Positions 6,465 through 15,125 of a stretch of DNA of 64,000 bases are shown piece by piece. Position 1 is the first letter of the stretch. Each line of letters begins with the position of its first letter. The stretch covers positions 1 through 64,000 of the forward strand of contig NZ_BCYU01000013.1 of NCBI RefSeq assembly GCF_001598355.1, written 5' to 3'. This DNA is from Sphingomonas asaccharolytica NBRC 15499. GTDB taxonomy: Bacteria > Pseudomonadota > Alphaproteobacteria > Sphingomonadales > Sphingomonadaceae. The position numbers and the translations under genes were made by a program. Below the pieces are notes generated by a model that searched no databases, was not told where the DNA came from, and saw only the letters and a list, made by a program, of their open reading frames with translations.

Positions 6465-6523
6465 AATTCCCTCTCCCGCATGCGGGAGGCAGCCGCTCGC
6501 GGAGCGGCGGAAGGTGAGGGCAG
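6465..6523. repeat. Solo copy of the DUF559-associated palindromic repeat
   Basis: It begins CCCTCTCCC, ends GGAAGGTGAGGGCAG, and has two internal palindromes. This is the same layout as the 60-bp repeats at 11291-11350 and 11731-11790, but the inner hairpins have diverged. It lies in the 407-bp gap 6314-6720, which otherwise holds only another repeat pair and no gene. Confidence 0.6.
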
Positions 6524-6599
6524 GAGTTCGTGTCTGTCCTAACCCCTCGCCGCTGCGCCGCCCGAGCCTCTTCTAGGACGCAACGCGACCAAGCTAAAT

Positions 6600-6695
6600 C
6601 GTCACCCCGGCCTTGTGGCGGGGTCCACCGGGCCGCAATCCCAGGCGCCAAAGAATGTGCTGCACGGTGGATGCCGGCACAAGGCCGGCATGACG
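6600..6695. repeat. REP-like inverted pair
   Basis: Two REP-like units face each other. The first, from 6600, begins CGTCACCCCGGCC. The second ends in GGATGCCGGCACAAGGCCGG followed by CATGACG. The second unit forms a perfect 8-bp hairpin (ATGCCGGC/GCCGGCAT). Pairs with the same outer CGTCA...TGACG ends recur at 23723, 50139 and 59363. Confidence 0.65.
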
Positions 6696-6720
6696 ATCAC
6701 CTTGCTCAACGCCATAGCTT

Positions 6721-9435: not shown

Positions 9436-10494
9436 TCATTCCGCCGCAATCCCCGCCTTATCGAACATATCCCCTTCGCCACTCCCGACATCCTCGTTGG
9501 CCGCCGGCCCGGCCTTCGCCTTCTGCCGCTTGTCGAAGCTGTCCCACACGTCGTTCCACTGACCGCGCGTCGCCGCCTTCGAATATTCCGTCGCGCGGGT
9601 TTCGAAGAAGTTGGCATGCTCGACGCCGTTGAGCATCGGGGTCAGCCAGGGCAGGGGATGCTCGTCGATCATGTAGATCGGCTTCATGCCGAGCTGGCCC
9701 AGGCGCCAGTCGGCGATGTAGCGGATGTACTTCTTGATCTCCTTGGGCGACATGCCGTTGACCGGGCCCTGCTCGAACGCGAGATCGATGAACGCGTCTT
9801 CCAGCCGGATCGTCGTCTGGCACACGTCGCCGATATCGTCGCGCACCGCCTTGGTCAGGCAGTCGCGTTCCTGCACGAAGGCGTGGAACAGGCGGATGAT
9901 GCCTTCGCAATGCAGGCTCTCATCGCGGACCGACCAGGACACGATCTGGCCCATGCCCTTCATCTTGTTGAAGCGCGGGAAGTTCATCAGCATCGCGAAG
10001 CTGGCGAACAGCTGCACACCCTCGGTGAAGCCGCCGAACATCGCCAGCGTGCGGGCGATATCCTCATCGGTGTCGACGCCGAATTGCTGCAGATAGTCGT
10101 GCTTGTCCTTCATCTCGGCATATTCGAGGAACATGCCATATTCGCTCTCGGGCATGCCGATCGTGTCGAGCAGGTGGCTGTACGCCGCGATGTGCACCGT
10201 CTCCATGTTGCTGAACGCGGTCAGCATCATCTTGACCTCGGTCGGCTTGAACACGCGGCCATATTTCTCGTGATAGCAATCCTGCACCTCGACATCCGCC
10301 TGGGTGAAGAAGCGGAAGATCTGGGTCAGCAGGTTGCGCTCGTGGTCCGACAGCTTCTGCGCCCAGTCGCGGCAATCCTCGCCCAGCGGCACCTCTTCGG
10401 GCAGCCAGTGGAGCTGTTGCTGGCGCTTCCAGAATTCGAACGCCCAGGGATATTCGAAGGGCTTGTACTGTTTGGAGGCCTTGAGAAGCGACAT
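9436..10494 (-). CDS. nrdB: Ribonucleotide-diphosphate reductase subunit beta
   Basis: A 352-residue class I R2 protein, which generates the radical used by NrdA for making deoxynucleotides. Iron ligands are visible in the EXXH pattern of NMETVHIAAYSH (about residue 100-112), which also holds the candidate radical Tyr, and in the later motif RDESLHCEG (about 190). The C-terminus is extended and charged (after about 310), and its last residues should dock into NrdA. GAAAGGTC lies before the ATG at 10494. Upstream on the same strand are two small membrane proteins, and nrdA is about 1.3 kb further up, separated by unrelated genes and a repeat cassette. Confidence 0.93.
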   Translation of the reverse strand: MSLLKASKQYKPFEYPWAFEFWKRQQQLHWLPEEVPLGEDCRDWAQKLSDHERNLLTQIFRFFTQADVEVQDCYHEKYGRVFKPTEVKMMLTAFSNMETVHIAAYSHLLDTIGMPESEYGMFLEYAEMKDKHDYLQQFGVDTDEDIARTLAMFGGFTEGVQLFASFAMLMNFPRFNKMKGMGQIVSWSVRDESLHCEGIIRLFHAFVQERDCLTKAVRDDIGDVCQTTIRLEDAFIDLAFEQGPVNGMSPKEIKKYIRYIADWRLGQLGMKPIYMIDEHPLPWLTPMLNGVEHANFFETRATEYSKAATRGQWNDVWDSFDKRQKAKAGPAANEDVGSGEGDMFDKAGIAAE

Positions 10495-11012: not shown

Positions 11013-11285
11013 ATGACCGTGACCGACCTCAGCCAGATCAAGGAACATATGGAAGTCATCGGCGCCGACGGCGTCCATGTCGGCACCGTCGACCATGTCG
11101 AAGGGGACCGCATCAAGCTGACCAAGAAGGATTCGGGCGCGGATGTCGAGGAAGGGCAGGGCAGCCATGCCGGGCACCACCATTACATCTCGCAGGGCCT
11201 GATCGCCGGTATCGAGGGCGACAAGGTGCGGCTGAGCGCCAACGCTGATGTCGCGGTGTCGTTTGAGGAGGAAGAGCAGGCGTGA
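11013..11285 (+). CDS. DUF2171 domain protein
   Basis: A 90-residue soluble protein with a PRC-barrel-like fold: IKEHMEVIGADGVHVGTVDHVEGDRIKL covers the conserved DUF2171 strand pattern (split here as IKEHMEVIGADGVHVGTV and DHVEGDRIKL). The C-terminus is acidic. CACAGGAGA immediately before the ATG is a strong ribosome site. Such proteins are frequent in stress regulons of this group, but no EcfG box is visible here. The stop lies 5 nt before the first 60-bp repeat. Confidence 0.85.
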   Translation: MTVTDLSQIKEHMEVIGADGVHVGTVDHVEGDRIKLTKKDSGADVEEGQGSHAGHHHYISQGLIAGIEGDKVRLSANADVAVSFEEEEQA

Positions 11286-11290
11286 CGCGA

Positions 11291-11350
11291 TAACTCCCTC
11301 TCCCGTCGGGAGAGGGAGGGAGGCGCGAAGCGCCGGAAGGGTGAGGGCAG
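11291..11350. repeat. 60-bp palindromic repeat, left arm of DUF559 cassette
   Basis: It contains two internal hairpins: CCCTCTCCC-N-GGGAGAGGG and GGCGC-GAA-GCGCC. Its reverse complement equals 11731-11790 at 58 of 60 positions. The DUF559 stop codon lies 6 nt beyond it. Confidence 0.9.
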
Positions 11351-11356
11351 AACGGT

Positions 11357-11731
11357 TCACGCCGCGCTGCCCCTCTTCCTCTTATCCAGCGTTGCGGCCA
11401 CGGCGGCCACTACGCCATCGATATTCTCCATCACGTCCTCATTTGAAAAGCGCTGGACATAAAAGCCCTCGCTTTCGATCACTTTTGTCCGTGCCGCGTC
11501 ATATTCTGCGGTGTTGGCGTGCGTGTCGCCATCGACTTCGATCACCAGCGCTTCCGAGAAGCACATGAAGTCCGCAAAAAACGGACCGATCGGCGTTTGG
11601 TGCCGCCACTTCAGCTCCGGGAGTGCTTCACGCAGCGCACGCAACAACCGACGCTCGGGCGAGGCCGCGTCGCGACGTAGCTGTCGCGCGCGGGGAACGG
11701 TTCCGATCGGTTTGTTCGCGTAAAGGCGCAC
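11357..11731 (-). CDS. DUF559 (Vsr-like) endonuclease-domain protein
   Basis: A 124-residue protein of the DUF559 family, related to very-short-patch-repair endonucleases with a PD-(D/E)XK-like fold. The visible core is a basic helix (ARQLRRDAASPERRLLRALR), then LKWRHQTPIGPFFADFMC, then LVIEVDGDTHANTAEYDAAR with the acidic EVDG motif, then VQRFSNEDV near the end. No helix-turn-helix or partner methylase is present. The GTG at 11731 is the first base of the right-hand repeat read on the minus strand, and the repeat supplies the GGAAGGGTGAGGG purine run as ribosome site; GTG at 11740 is an alternative. Repeats bound the gene tightly on both sides. Confidence 0.85.
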   Translation of the reverse strand: MRLYANKPIGTVPRARQLRRDAASPERRLLRALREALPELKWRHQTPIGPFFADFMCFSEALVIEVDGDTHANTAEYDAARTKVIESEGFYVQRFSNEDVMENIDGVVAAVAATLDKRKRGSAA

Positions 11732-11790
11732 TGCCCTCACCCTTCCGGCGCTTCGCGCCTCCCTCCCTCTCCCGAAGGGAGAGGGAATTA
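11731..11790. repeat. 60-bp palindromic repeat, right arm of DUF559 cassette
   Basis: Inverted copy of 11291-11350 with two mismatches. On the minus strand its last bases hold the ribosome-binding site and start codon of the DUF559 gene. It ends 8 nt before the nrdA stop codon. Confidence 0.9.
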
Positions 11791-11797
11791 GCCTACC

Positions 11798-13720
11798 TCA
11801 CTGGCACGCCAGGCATTCATCGTAATCCGTCGTTTCGCCCAGTTCGAACTTGGGCGCCTCGATCGTGTTGTCGGCCTCGACCCCGCCGGCGAACCCGGCG
11901 CGCTGCACCGATTTCGAGCGGAGGTAGTAAAGCGACTTCACGCCCAATTCCCAGGCGCGGAAGTGGAGCATCAGCAGGTCCCACTTCTCGACATCGGCCG
12001 GGATGAACAGGTTGAGGCTGGTCGACTGGTCGATATAGGGCGTGCGGTCGGCCTGGAGCTCGATCAGCCAGCGCTGGTCGATCTCGAAGCTGGTCTTGTA
12101 GCAGTCCTTTTCCTCCTGGCTCAGGAAGTCGAGATGCTGGACCGAGCCGCCGCGCTCGAGGATCGAATTCCACACCGCATCGCTGTTCTTCGATTTCTCG
12201 ATGAAGATCTTCTCGAGATACGGGTTCTTGACCGAGAACGACCCCGACAGCGTCTTGTGGGTGTAGATGTTGGCCGGGATCGGCTCGATGCACGCGCTGG
12301 TGCCGCCGCAGATGATCGAGATCGACGCGGTCGGCGCGATCGCCATCTTGCAGCTGAAGCGCTCCATCACGCCCATGTCGGCGGCGTCGGGGCAGGGGCC
12401 GCGCTCGACCGCCAGCGCCATCGACGCGGCGTCGACCTGGGCGCGGATCTGCTTGAACATCTTCATGTTCCACGACTTCGCCATCGCGCCTTCGAACGGC
12501 AGGCCGCGCGCCTGAAGGAACGAGTGGAACCCCATCACGCCCAAGCCGACCGACCGCTCACGCATCGCCGAATAAGCGGCGCGCTCCATGCCGGGTTCGG
12601 CGCGGTCGATGAAATCCTGCAGCACATTGTCGAGGAACCGCATGATGTCCTCGATGAAATGCTCGTCCTTGTTCCACTGATCCCAGGTCTCAAGGTTGAG
12701 CGAGCTGAGGCAGCACACCGCGGTGCGATCCTTGCCGAGGTGATCCTTGCCGGTCGGCAGGGTGATTTCCGAGCACAGGTTCGAGGTCGAGACCTTCAAG
12801 CCCAGATCGCGATGATGCTTGGGCATCGTCGAGTTCACGTGATCGGCGAAGATGATGTACGGCTCGCCAGTGGCGAGACGGGTCTCGACCAGCTTCTGGA
12901 ACAGCGCACGGGCATCGACCTTGCCGCGCTCGCTGCCGTCCTTGGGCGACTTGAGCGACCATTCGGAACCGTCGCGCACCGCTTCCATGAAGGCGTCGGG
13001 GATCAGCACGCCGTGGTGCAGGTTGAGCGCCTTGCGGTTGAAGTCGCCCGACGGTTTGCGGATCTCGAGGAATTCCTCGATCTCCGGGTGCGAGATGTCG
13101 AGATAGCAGGCGGCCGAGCCGCGGCGCAGCGAGCCCTGGCTGATCGCCAGCGTCAGGCTGTCCATCACGCGAACGAACGGAATGATGCCGCTGGTCTTGC
13201 CGTTAAGGCCGACCGGCTCGCCGATGCCGCGGACATTGCCCCAATAGGTGCCGATACCGCCGCCGCGCGAGGCGAGCCAGACATTCTCATTCCAGGTGTC
13301 GACGATGCCGTTGAGGCTGTCGGGCACCGAGTTGAGGAAGCACGAGATCGGTAGGCCGCGTCCGGTGCCGCCGTTCGACAGCACGGGGGTCGCCGGCATG
13401 AACCATAGCCGCGAGATATAATCGTAGAGGCGCTGCGCATGCGCGCCGTCATCGGCATAAGCCGACGCCACGCGGACGAAGAGGTCCTGGTACGATTCGC
13501 CCGGGAGCAGATAGCGGTCGTTGAGCGTGTCCTTGCCGAAATCGGTCAGGAGGTCGTCGCGCGAATGATCGACCTCGACTGGGTATGGCTTGGCGATCGA
13601 CTTCGAATCGCGCTTCTTCGTCTGGGGTGCCGTATTCGCCTGCACCGTCGCCGCTGCCGCCTCGATCGCATCGGTCGCCATATTCTCGCCCGTTCCTTCG
13701 GTGTCTCTGAAATCCATCAT
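11798..13720 (-). CDS. nrdA: Ribonucleoside-diphosphate reductase subunit alpha
   Basis: A 640-residue class I R1 subunit, reducing NDPs to dNDPs with NrdB. Visible are the active-site cysteines in LPISCFLNS and TAVCCLSSLNLE, the thiyl Cys motif SNLCSEITLP, the radical-transfer tyrosines in SLYYLRSKS near 600, and the redox-active C-terminus CLACQ. The N-terminus (about 90 residues before the barrel) is Ala/Thr-rich and lacks the ATP-cone domain of longer NrdA proteins, so allosteric on/off control must differ. ATG 13720 follows CAGGGGCGG; the next in-frame ATG is at 13717. It is separated from nrdB by about 1.3 kb. Confidence 0.93.
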   Translation of the reverse strand: MMDFRDTEGTGENMATDAIEAAAATVQANTAPQTKKRDSKSIAKPYPVEVDHSRDDLLTDFGKDTLNDRYLLPGESYQDLFVRVASAYADDGAHAQRLYDYISRLWFMPATPVLSNGGTGRGLPISCFLNSVPDSLNGIVDTWNENVWLASRGGGIGTYWGNVRGIGEPVGLNGKTSGIIPFVRVMDSLTLAISQGSLRRGSAACYLDISHPEIEEFLEIRKPSGDFNRKALNLHHGVLIPDAFMEAVRDGSEWSLKSPKDGSERGKVDARALFQKLVETRLATGEPYIIFADHVNSTMPKHHRDLGLKVSTSNLCSEITLPTGKDHLGKDRTAVCCLSSLNLETWDQWNKDEHFIEDIMRFLDNVLQDFIDRAEPGMERAAYSAMRERSVGLGVMGFHSFLQARGLPFEGAMAKSWNMKMFKQIRAQVDAASMALAVERGPCPDAADMGVMERFSCKMAIAPTASISIICGGTSACIEPIPANIYTHKTLSGSFSVKNPYLEKIFIEKSKNSDAVWNSILERGGSVQHLDFLSQEEKDCYKTSFEIDQRWLIELQADRTPYIDQSTSLNLFIPADVEKWDLLMLHFRAWELGVKSLYYLRSKSVQRAGFAGGVEADNTIEAPKFELGETTDYDECLACQ

Positions 13721-14132
13721 CCGCCCCTGCTTTCCGCTCGCACAAATCGACTCGGGGGAACGAACCCCCATCCTACCATCCGGGCCCAACAGGTGAGAAC
13801 AAAAATAGTCCACAGCCTGTTCAAAAAGCACGCGAGGGGTCCTGCCGCGATATAAGATCGCGACTGGATTTCCACCAGTGCTTGGGTCGCCCCCGAACCG
13901 AACTACAACAGATTGTGCCCATCCGGCTCCGGACGCAATACCGTAAATGACGAATTCATGACTCAGTTCGTCGCTATTTTGACTCGACTCACGGAAGGTC
14001 CGATCCGGTCCATTCGCCGCGACGCGCGGGTTTCCGCGGGCTTCCGCGAAGGCAAGGGAACGAACACGGAACACACAAAAATATTGTGGTCGACTGCTGG
14101 ACCGTATCAACGGGTTGTGGTCGGGTCGAGTC
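13721..14132. other. Long divergent intergenic region upstream of nrdA
   Basis: 412 bp without a convincing gene; the overlapping ORFs have implausible composition. Two weak inverted patterns resembling NrdR boxes are present. One is CTACAACAGATTGTGC at 13902-13917, matching about 11 of 16 consensus positions. The other is CACAA-N5-TTGTG at 14074-14088, which would need a one-base gap to fit. Neither is strong. The region should contain the nrdA promoter on the minus strand and that of the PhyH gene on the plus strand. Confidence 0.4.
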
Positions 14133-15125
14133 ATGACCGATCCGATCGTTCTATTTGATCAGATTCGCGGACTCCGGGCGCTATGGGCGCGGGGGACACG
14201 TCGCGATTCGCCGGCCGAAGCGCATCCCGTGCCGATCCGGACGCTGCTCGACACCCTCGGTCTCGGGCTCGAACAGACGATGTCGATGCTGGGACAGGAG
14301 CGACCAGATTGGCCGGCGTTCGCCGCGTGGATCGAGGCGACCGCGGGTCTGCCCGACGCGGCGCGACTGGCGCGCTACACCGCCTGGTATGATGGCGCCG
14401 AGCCGCCCGCCGAGGAAGTCGCGCGCCAGGCGGCGGTGATGGCGATGGCGCCGGTATTCGACGCCGACGATCTGGCGCGATGGGACCGCGACGGGGTGGT
14501 CGTGCTGCGAGAGGCGATCACAAGCGACCAGGCGGCGGCGATTGCGGATCATCTCTGGTCGATCCTCGATGCCGATCCGGCCGATCCCGCGACCTGGTAC
14601 GGGCCGCGCACCAACGGCATCATGATCCAGCATTTCCAGCATCCGACGATGGACGTGCCGCGTCGCTCGCTGCGCATGGCGAAGGGTTTTGCCGAGCTCT
14701 ACGGCCATGCCGATCTGATCGTGTCGACCGACCGGCTGAGCTTCAATCCGCCGATCAGGCCCGGCTACACCTTTCCCGGGCCGCATCTGCACTGGGACGG
14801 CAATCTGACGCCGCCGATCGCGCTCGAAACCCAGGCGATCCTCTATCTGACCGACACCGCCGCCGATCAGGGCGCGTTGCAGGTCGTGCCGGGTTTTCAC
14901 CATCGTCTGGCGGATGGCTGGATCGCGCGCCTGAACGGCGCGGATCCGCGGACCGTCGACCTGTCGTCCGAGGCCGTGACGGTGCCGGCAGGAGCGGGCG
15001 ATCTCGTGATCTGGCGCCACGAAATCCCCCACGGCGCCAGCGCCAATCGAGCCGACCGGCCGAGGCTGGCGCACTATGTGAACCATTATCCGATGCACTG
15101 GCCCGACCAGCGGCCCTGGCTGTAG
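14133..15125 (+). CDS. Phytanoyl-CoA dioxygenase (PhyH) family protein
   Basis: A 330-residue cytosolic Fe(II)/2-oxoglutarate oxygenase-like protein. After about 120 residues of helical N-terminus, the PhyH domain begins at DLARWDRDGVVVLREAI. The metal-binding HxD is seen in HLHWDGN (about 217-221), and the distal His with a following strand is in WRHEIPHGAS near 295. The motif AILYLTDTAADQGALQVVPG between them is typical. The substrate is unknown, since the family acts on many hydrophobic and hydroxylated compounds. The ATG at 14133 has only a weak ribosome site; TTG at 14115 is an alternative. Confidence 0.82.
   Translation: MTDPIVLFDQIRGLRALWARGTRRDSPAEAHPVPIRTLLDTLGLGLEQTMSMLGQERPDWPAFAAWIEATAGLPDAARLARYTAWYDGAEPPAEEVARQAAVMAMAPVFDADDLARWDRDGVVVLREAITSDQAAAIADHLWSILDADPADPATWYGPRTNGIMIQHFQHPTMDVPRRSLRMAKGFAELYGHADLIVSTDRLSFNPPIRPGYTFPGPHLHWDGNLTPPIALETQAILYLTDTAADQGALQVVPGFHHRLADGWIARLNGADPRTVDLSSEAVTVPAGAGDLVIWRHEIPHGASANRADRPRLAHYVNHYPMHWPDQRPWL

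Follow-up and report, generated by a model that had tools for sequence, protein, structure and literature searches.

REP-type palindromes are common among bacterial repeats, and for the REP-associated tyrosine transposases (RAYTs) the enslavement of an IS200-like ancestor has reportedly been proposed. To our knowledge, RAYTs are the only enzymes that have been tied to such palindromes so far, which is also the picture given in the accessible part of PMC3116915. RAYTs and REPs together form the RAYT-REPIN system (accessible parts of PMC3116915 and PMC2817692), in which, according to the former source, the gene is single copy, largely vertically inherited and seemingly immobile, distinct gene-repeat pairs occur in each genome and the REPs are arranged as inverted doublets. 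The DUF559 gene described here lies in the window, by which we mean the whole stretch of 64,000 nt that was analysed, and resembles a RAYT gene in several respects: it is single copy and mostly vertically inherited, it lies beside its own REP family and is flanked by copies of this dispersed repeat, several distinct pairs are found per genome, the REPs occur as inverted doublets and the gene itself is apparently immobile. On the other hand, the enzyme is a Vsr/homing-endonuclease-like DUF559 protein and not a Y1 HUH protein, the repeats consist of two hairpins and a G-rich tail and carry no GTAG tag, and the mechanism of spread must differ. Since the enzyme is unrelated to the HUH transposase, the window system is not a RAYT; by analogy, DUF559 would work like one if our reading of its role is right.

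Three further groups of described elements are relevant. The homing endonuclease I-Bth0305I (3R3P), which we take to belong to the EDxHD group, is similar to the window protein in its fold and catalytic region, whereas the window gene is without intron or intein, is bracketed by dispersed palindromes and encodes a domain-sized protein. The Vsr mismatch endonuclease (1VSR, 1CW0) shares the fold class, with a weaker match. We know of no enzyme that has been assigned to the RIMEs. RIMEs and other rhizobial intergenic palindromes trace back to Osteras 1995 (cited in the accessible part of PMC2873474). Caulobacter VsrA contains a DUF559 domain, but no association with repeats is described in the accessible part of PMC12907096. 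Judged by titles and the beginnings of abstracts, and with partial coverage of subscription journals, none of the papers listed by the literature searches described DUF559 or GIY-YIG together with REPs.

The locus order around the window gene is nrdA-DUF2171-nrdB, and the features are listed in Table 1; the true start of nrdA probably lies further inside the mechanical ORF. An earlier, sequence-only reading of this DNA had described a 60-nt inverted repeat and a gene that fills the interval between the two copies, and alignment of the two arms bore this out: they are identical at 58 of 60 positions (97%), and the DUF559 stop codon ends at 11357, with 6 nt separating it from the left copy. The same reading had placed the start codon on the edge of the repeat. 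Two in-frame GTG codons are candidates for the start, and the claim holds for the second because it begins at 11731, the innermost base of the right repeat, but fails for the first (11740), which is situated 10 nt within the copy. The repeat tail also contains a Shine-Dalgarno-like GAGGG stretch as a putative ribosome-binding site. Each arm comprises two hairpins (11 or 10 bp, then 5 bp) and, facing the gene, a G-rich tail of 16 unpaired nt, and both arms are strong hairpins in DNA folding (z -3.8 to -4.6). A search of Rfam gave no match near the gathering score, and the tandem repeats that we checked were unrelated to the REP/DUF559 feature.

Table 1. Features at and around the DUF559 locus (positions in the window).
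Feature	Position	Strand	Remarks
Left REP arm	11291..11350	+	reads outward-to-inward on +
Left arm, hairpin 1 stem	11294-11304/11308-11318		
Left arm, hairpin 2 stem	11322-11326/11330-11334		
Left arm, G-rich tail	11335-11350		
Right REP arm, inverted	11731..11790	-	
Right arm, hairpin 1 stem	11764-11773/11777-11786		
Right arm, hairpin 2 stem	11747-11751/11755-11759		
Right arm, tail	11731-11746		contains first GTG and Shine-Dalgarno-like stretch
DUF559 (PF04480) nuclease-fold gene, 127 aa	11357..11740	-	
nrdA-type ribonucleotide reductase large subunit	11798..14134	-	mechanical ORF limits
DUF2171 gene, neighbour on the side opposite nrdA	11013..11285	+	present in 27/29 best homologous loci
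nrdB-like small-subunit gene	9436..10494	-	from inner ATG; mechanical ORF start 10674

The window ORF matches PF04480 with an E-value of 2.5e-29 (101.8 bits, curated cut-off 20.6). In an alignment of 45 sequences, D57, D70, H74 and D81 were invariant and E68 nearly so. The structure was predicted with a pLDDT of 88, and a structure search returned three PDB chains at E <= 0.001, namely the DUF559 protein 3HRL and two I-Bth0305I catalytic-domain chains, followed by PvuRts1I, AbaSI and then Vsr (E about 0.03). I-Bth0305I was also found by sequence in a profile search (E 1.6e-4). By its domain match, its modelled fold and its conserved acidic and His residues, the protein belongs to the DUF559/Vsr-like group, and we refer to it as a predicted nuclease. 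Over 28 pairs, dN/dS ranged from 0.08 to 0.38, with dS saturated in many of them, and by this codon-based measure the gene is under purifying selection. The window protein matched none of the PADLOC families of known anti-phage defence systems, and the other three DUF559 proteins of the same genome gave weak partial PADLOC matches (DpdF for one; DpdF, HEase, mREase_II and Hhe for another; mREase_II for the last).

To score the bracketing of a gene by inverted repeats, the 350 nt on its left were aligned locally with the reverse complement of the 350 nt on its right, and the best alignment score was taken. The threshold of 36 (or 40) was chosen after the first scores and controls had been obtained, and the loci, selected for high score, by rank or by our own choice, are not a random sample; arms that are themselves palindromic (e.g. 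L079, L193) are uninformative on orientation. The window gene reached a score of 110; of the 65 ORFs scored in the window, it alone came to 36 or more. All four DUF559 copies of its genome were bracketed, with arms that differed between the genes. A search of 121 genomes of the genus gave 78 bracketed genes out of 83 at >=36, made up of 61/63 loci taken by best score and 17/20 next in rank; because many of the loci are orthologues, the counts are not independent. The complete genome G010 contained ten DUF559 matches, eight of them bracketed; in the remaining two, which lie in frames of 363 and 1976 aa, the domain was matched in part only. Bracketing at >=36 was found for 18/30 genes in the class sample and for 15/28 in the phylum sample, which includes 9/16 from outside the class, and additional places outside the class gave 7/10. 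The unbracketed genes number 5/83, 12/30 and 13/28 in the genus, class and phylum samples, respectively. Among 17 named loci that we chose from 35 plasmid-collection records with a match, 11 scored at least 40: three Deinococcus, three Sphingomonas parapaucimobilis, Sphingobium, Sinorhizobium meliloti Ak57, Qipengyuania, Azospirillum lipoferum and the cyanobacterium Pseudanabaena. Those of E. coli, Photobacterium, Methylobacterium, Azospirillum brasilense, PCC 7002 and Synechocystis B12 scored below 40.

In S. meliloti Ak57 (L209), DUF559 is situated between elements of about 130 nt with two palindromes each (1237-1369 and 1835-1948), which resemble the rhizobial RIMEs; the element has 153 matches in that record, counting fragments and both strands, and an ISRm16 transposase gene is adjacent.

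Shifted positions within the same and related loci served as controls and scored at most 31, with 0/552 at >=35, and the arrangement in the window is not a chance one; among later controls, L174 passed the threshold with 69 and 66 (2/166, phylum sample) and L218 with 41 and 52 (named loci). The null set consisted of ORFs no shorter than 90 aa: 326 were scored from 400 kb of the relative G101, 65 from the window and 112 from 120 kb of S. mali, two of 505 ORFs giving no score. Three ORFs were bracketed, which were the DUF559 genes of the respective stretches, and the other 500 gave no bracketed case (highest score 32). Flank settings differed slightly between runs, and under both the null ORFs yielded the same three DUF559 matches.

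GIY-YIG genes had been picked as a negative control representing small nuclease genes. We found, however, that 37 of 50 GIY-YIG genes of the genus (L305-L354) were bracketed by inverted palindromes, including 23/30 taken as best by score and 14/20 small frames that we picked ourselves. Since GIY-YIG failed as a control, we take the 500 remaining scored ORFs as the null, and among the ORFs tested bracketing is confined to nuclease families. The GIY-YIG palindromes belong mainly to the types CCGTTCGCCCTGAGCTTGTCGAAGGGCG and CCCCGGCGAAGGCCGGGG, which are other than the DUF559 repeats. C-rich arms were present at 78/78 bracketed DUF559 genes (two of which also pass the CCGG test) and at 2/37 bracketed GIY-YIG genes, the arm motif classes having been defined after the arms were seen. 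The repeat class follows the nuclease family.

Alignment of 43 arms (42 distinct) revealed that hairpin 1 is near-invariant and that hairpin 2 varies with compensatory change: 99.8% of the cells are paired, and 29 cells are altered on both sides, compared with 6.4 in shuffles (0/500 as high) and at most 5 in slid structures. Hairpin 2 is maintained by compensatory change. The foot tag of REPs is GTAG or CGTC (PMC3733652); GTAG was absent from the 43 arms, and the only CGTC matches spanned the variable loop of hairpin 1 in some copies. Four G-tracts were present on the inward strand of 147/172 genus arms when one long loop was allowed (79 with short loops only) and of 47/80 DUF559 arms outside the genus (40 with short loops only); the hairpin and the tail contribute two tracts each. 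On the opposite strand, the corresponding counts were 16/172 and 11/80, shuffles gave 7.3% and GIY-YIG arms 0/74. Folding with RNA parameters left two whole arms out of three as plain hairpins and gave a hairpin plus a quadruplex for the third; the G-part of one short-tail arm folded alone into a quadruplex, and the folding program gave none for the corresponding part of the window's own arm. From this modelling, quadruplex formation by DUF559 arms is only a suggestion.

The repeat is dispersed: the own genome has 44 matches to it, in part the two strands of one palindrome, and 69 hairpins by a broader pattern. Dispersed copies occur as singles and often as inverted pairs, which either meet tail to tail across a short spacer or have hairpin 1 in common; by the strict pattern, 5/13 of the own-genome stretches examined contained such pairs, which are found in relatives as well, and two dispersed pairs form long hairpins when folded (z -9.0 and -6.9). 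Across the 121 genus genomes, hairpin number correlated with DUF559 number (Spearman 0.69, phylogeny ignored). The eight genomes without DUF559 contained 0, 0, 0, 1, 0, 1, 1 and 5 hairpins, the 113 carriers had a median of 18, and the 27 genomes with a close member of the window clade reached a median of 36, compared with 15 in the other carriers. Furthermore, protein and arm similarity were correlated over 79 loci (Mantel rho 0.445, against no more than 0.153 in 2000 permutations), and in 22/26 same-genome comparisons the arm was closer to that of the nearest foreign protein than to that of a DUF559 gene in the same genome. Both the co-divergence of gene and arm and the same-genome result could arise by shared descent at fixed loci alone.

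Other repeats were seen in the same genomes. At 6598-6697 the window contains a palindrome of a different class as an inverted pair (CCCCGGCCTTGTGGCGGGG ... GCCGGCACAAGGCCGGC), its 40-nt arms separated by 20 nt. A hairpin family with a GCTTGC loop (G000:C1:23128, C3:57038, C4:103423 and others) matches none of the four DUF559 flanks of the own genome and is either an orphan repeat family or one whose nuclease has been lost. The draft contigs C1, C43, C49, C143, C146 and C69 begin no more than about 120 nt from a repeat copy, and the repeat therefore seems to break the assembly. A decayed single REP copy at about 6465-6523 of the window occupies the same site in S. mali (near G040:C1:426121), and was the one dispersed copy in the 77-kb contig that was compared. 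In S. mali, a further palindromic element (ATCGGGT...ACCCGATGC) resides inside a hairpin 1, and a similar insert is found in an arm of genome G017 (L111).

Synteny was used to examine whether the gene moves. The 29 best relatives outside the own genome are all beside nrdA, 27 of them also beside DUF2171. When 232 DUF559 pairs of at least 60% identity were compared, 220 agreed in their neighbours on both sides of the gene, 9 on one side only and 3 on neither; for the 68 pairs outside the nrdA group, the numbers were 58, 7 and 3. Other DUF559 subfamilies lie between pntAA and pntAB, between sufB and sufC, and before dnaG (yqeY-dnaG). The DUF559 pairs compared within one genome were 29-45% identical, and therefore no fresh copies were seen; the low identity and the fixed loci set the system apart from an insertion sequence with terminal inverted repeats. 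At the nrdA locus of 17 other genus genomes, 11 had no DUF559 match within 1.5 kb and six had one; the nrdA-linked gene of G004 (L124) is apparently broken, being found as two tblastn pieces, and repeats remain on both sides of it. No clean empty site at nrdA was found among genus relatives, as the gene-less relatives are too diverged for the junction to be readable, and neither a clean insertion event nor a target-site duplication was established in the comparisons made. Elsewhere, 173 nt with repeats of another DUF559 subfamily are present in S. meliloti ml56 and absent from Sinorhizobium K101, which could reflect a deletion instead of an insertion, and Sinorhizobium plasmids (strain LMB1) differ by loss or gain of 44 nt corresponding to a single palindrome. 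In three Deinococcus species (L202, L203, L216), DUF559 is found in three different gaps of the hpaB-hpaE region, which suggests occasional movement.

Collectively, the DUF559 gene is not a roaming cassette; it is the repeat that multiplies. The window DUF559 is single copy, vertically inherited and not self-mobile, with several DUF559 subfamilies per genome. The sequence-only reading had envisaged a cassette moved or kept as one unit: that it is kept agrees with the systematic bracketing, and that it is moved is not supported, the loci being fixed. The outcome against which that reading had set its proposal, DUF559 genes being as frequent without repeats, does not apply to the genus, and the bracketed share drops in farther taxa; the parallel it drew with REP-associated transposases is a close one.

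Considering these data, DUF559 is a leading candidate for the agent that spreads or maintains these repeats, and we put the probability that the nuclease has such a role at roughly 0.55. The locus would then be the resident master gene of a REP family, that is, a vertically inherited DUF559 gene with its cognate repeats inverted on both sides. The nuclease would most likely recognise the hairpin-plus-G-tail structure, in single-stranded or extruded form, and nick or cut it, and host replication or repair would copy repeat pairs (REPINs) to new intergenic sites or maintain the existing ones. We know of no strand-joining chemistry in PD-(D/E)XK-type nucleases, and dissemination would therefore need host repair. 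The flanking copies would supply the translation start region and may also tie the nuclease to its repeats, by autoregulation or as a cis-retention mark. Binding, cleavage and any role in dissemination are what we infer.

Several other explanations have to be weighed. DUF559 may be a homing-type selfish gene that inserted copies of itself between the genes of conserved operons (nrdA-nrdB, pntAA-pntAB, sufB-sufC, yqeY-dnaG) or in the loops of pre-existing REPINs, with the repeats serving as homology arms or as a landing site. The second structural neighbour, the homing endonuclease I-Bth0305I, would fit this idea, as would the position of the genes inside conserved operons, the presence and absence at the nrdA locus with one apparently broken gene among the six carriers, the three gaps occupied in one Deinococcus operon region and the bracketing of GIY-YIG, a nuclease family with homing members. 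However, the subfamilies remain at fixed loci, and nrdA, with both RNR domains, is a single open frame and therefore contains no intron or intein, a free-standing homing gene being a possible form; homing also requires flanking homology, leaves the hairpins over unrelated sites unexplained and does not account for a repeat number that tracks DUF559. We consider it unlikely.

The strong hairpins of the arms and the start codon region within them are compatible with passive punctuation, in which the repeats would be transcription terminators or start-region modules flanking a dispensable gene. We regard this as improbable, given that none of the 500 other scored ORFs is bracketed, that DUF559 and GIY-YIG have different repeat classes within one genus and that repeat number goes with DUF559 number. 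To a similar degree, we doubt that the nuclease controls or repairs the repeats, cleaving REP hairpins, cruciforms or quadruplexes to limit REPs or to clear replication blocks and being retained where REPs are common. The Vsr-like fold class and the G-tract signature of the arms agree with such a function, and so does Caulobacter VsrA, a DUF559 protein that is needed for the SOS response in cells without a cytosine methylase (PMC12907096). Nevertheless, a repair function leaves the bracketing of the gene itself unexplained, and the gene goes with more repeats and not fewer, which retention where REPs are common would fit too.

Still less probable is an ordinary inverted-repeat transposon whose terminal repeats are the 60-nt arms, which jumps as a whole cassette and of which the REPINs are MITEs: the gene does occupy the whole space between the arms and the dispersed pairs do resemble internally deleted copies, but the loci are fixed, same-genome DUF559 pairs are too dissimilar and no target duplication was established. 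Simple transposition of the cassette was rejected on synteny (29/29 at nrdA; 229/232 pairs common on one or both sides). Finally, a Y1 (HUH) transposase elsewhere in the genome, with DUF559 as a bystander, was rejected as the mover and retains a very slight probability, as neither of the two Y1_Tnp genes present in the own genome is flanked by the DUF559 repeats or linked to them, one having an unrelated 27-nt inverted repeat (score 39).

The role that we propose for DUF559 in spreading or maintaining its repeats can be extended, tentatively and with somewhat less than even confidence, to a general class of REP-associated nucleases, comprising the HUH RAYTs and at least the DUF559/Vsr-like and GIY-YIG families as fixed master genes. 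Each family would be vertically inherited and have its own palindromic miniature mobile DNA, and both DUF559 and GIY-YIG have homing-endonuclease relatives. If true, an enzyme would be assigned to many orphan palindromic repeats, and there would be a non-HUH route of REP dissemination, perhaps via a hairpin/G-quadruplex switch in the DUF559 repeats. Through the specific, recurrent link to DUF559, and unexpectedly also to GIY-YIG, repeat families so far lacking an enzyme gain one that can be tested, and DUF559, a domain of unknown function of which this genome alone has four copies, gains a role. The link also suggests a repeated enslavement of homing-type nucleases by miniature repeats, in parallel to the RAYTs.
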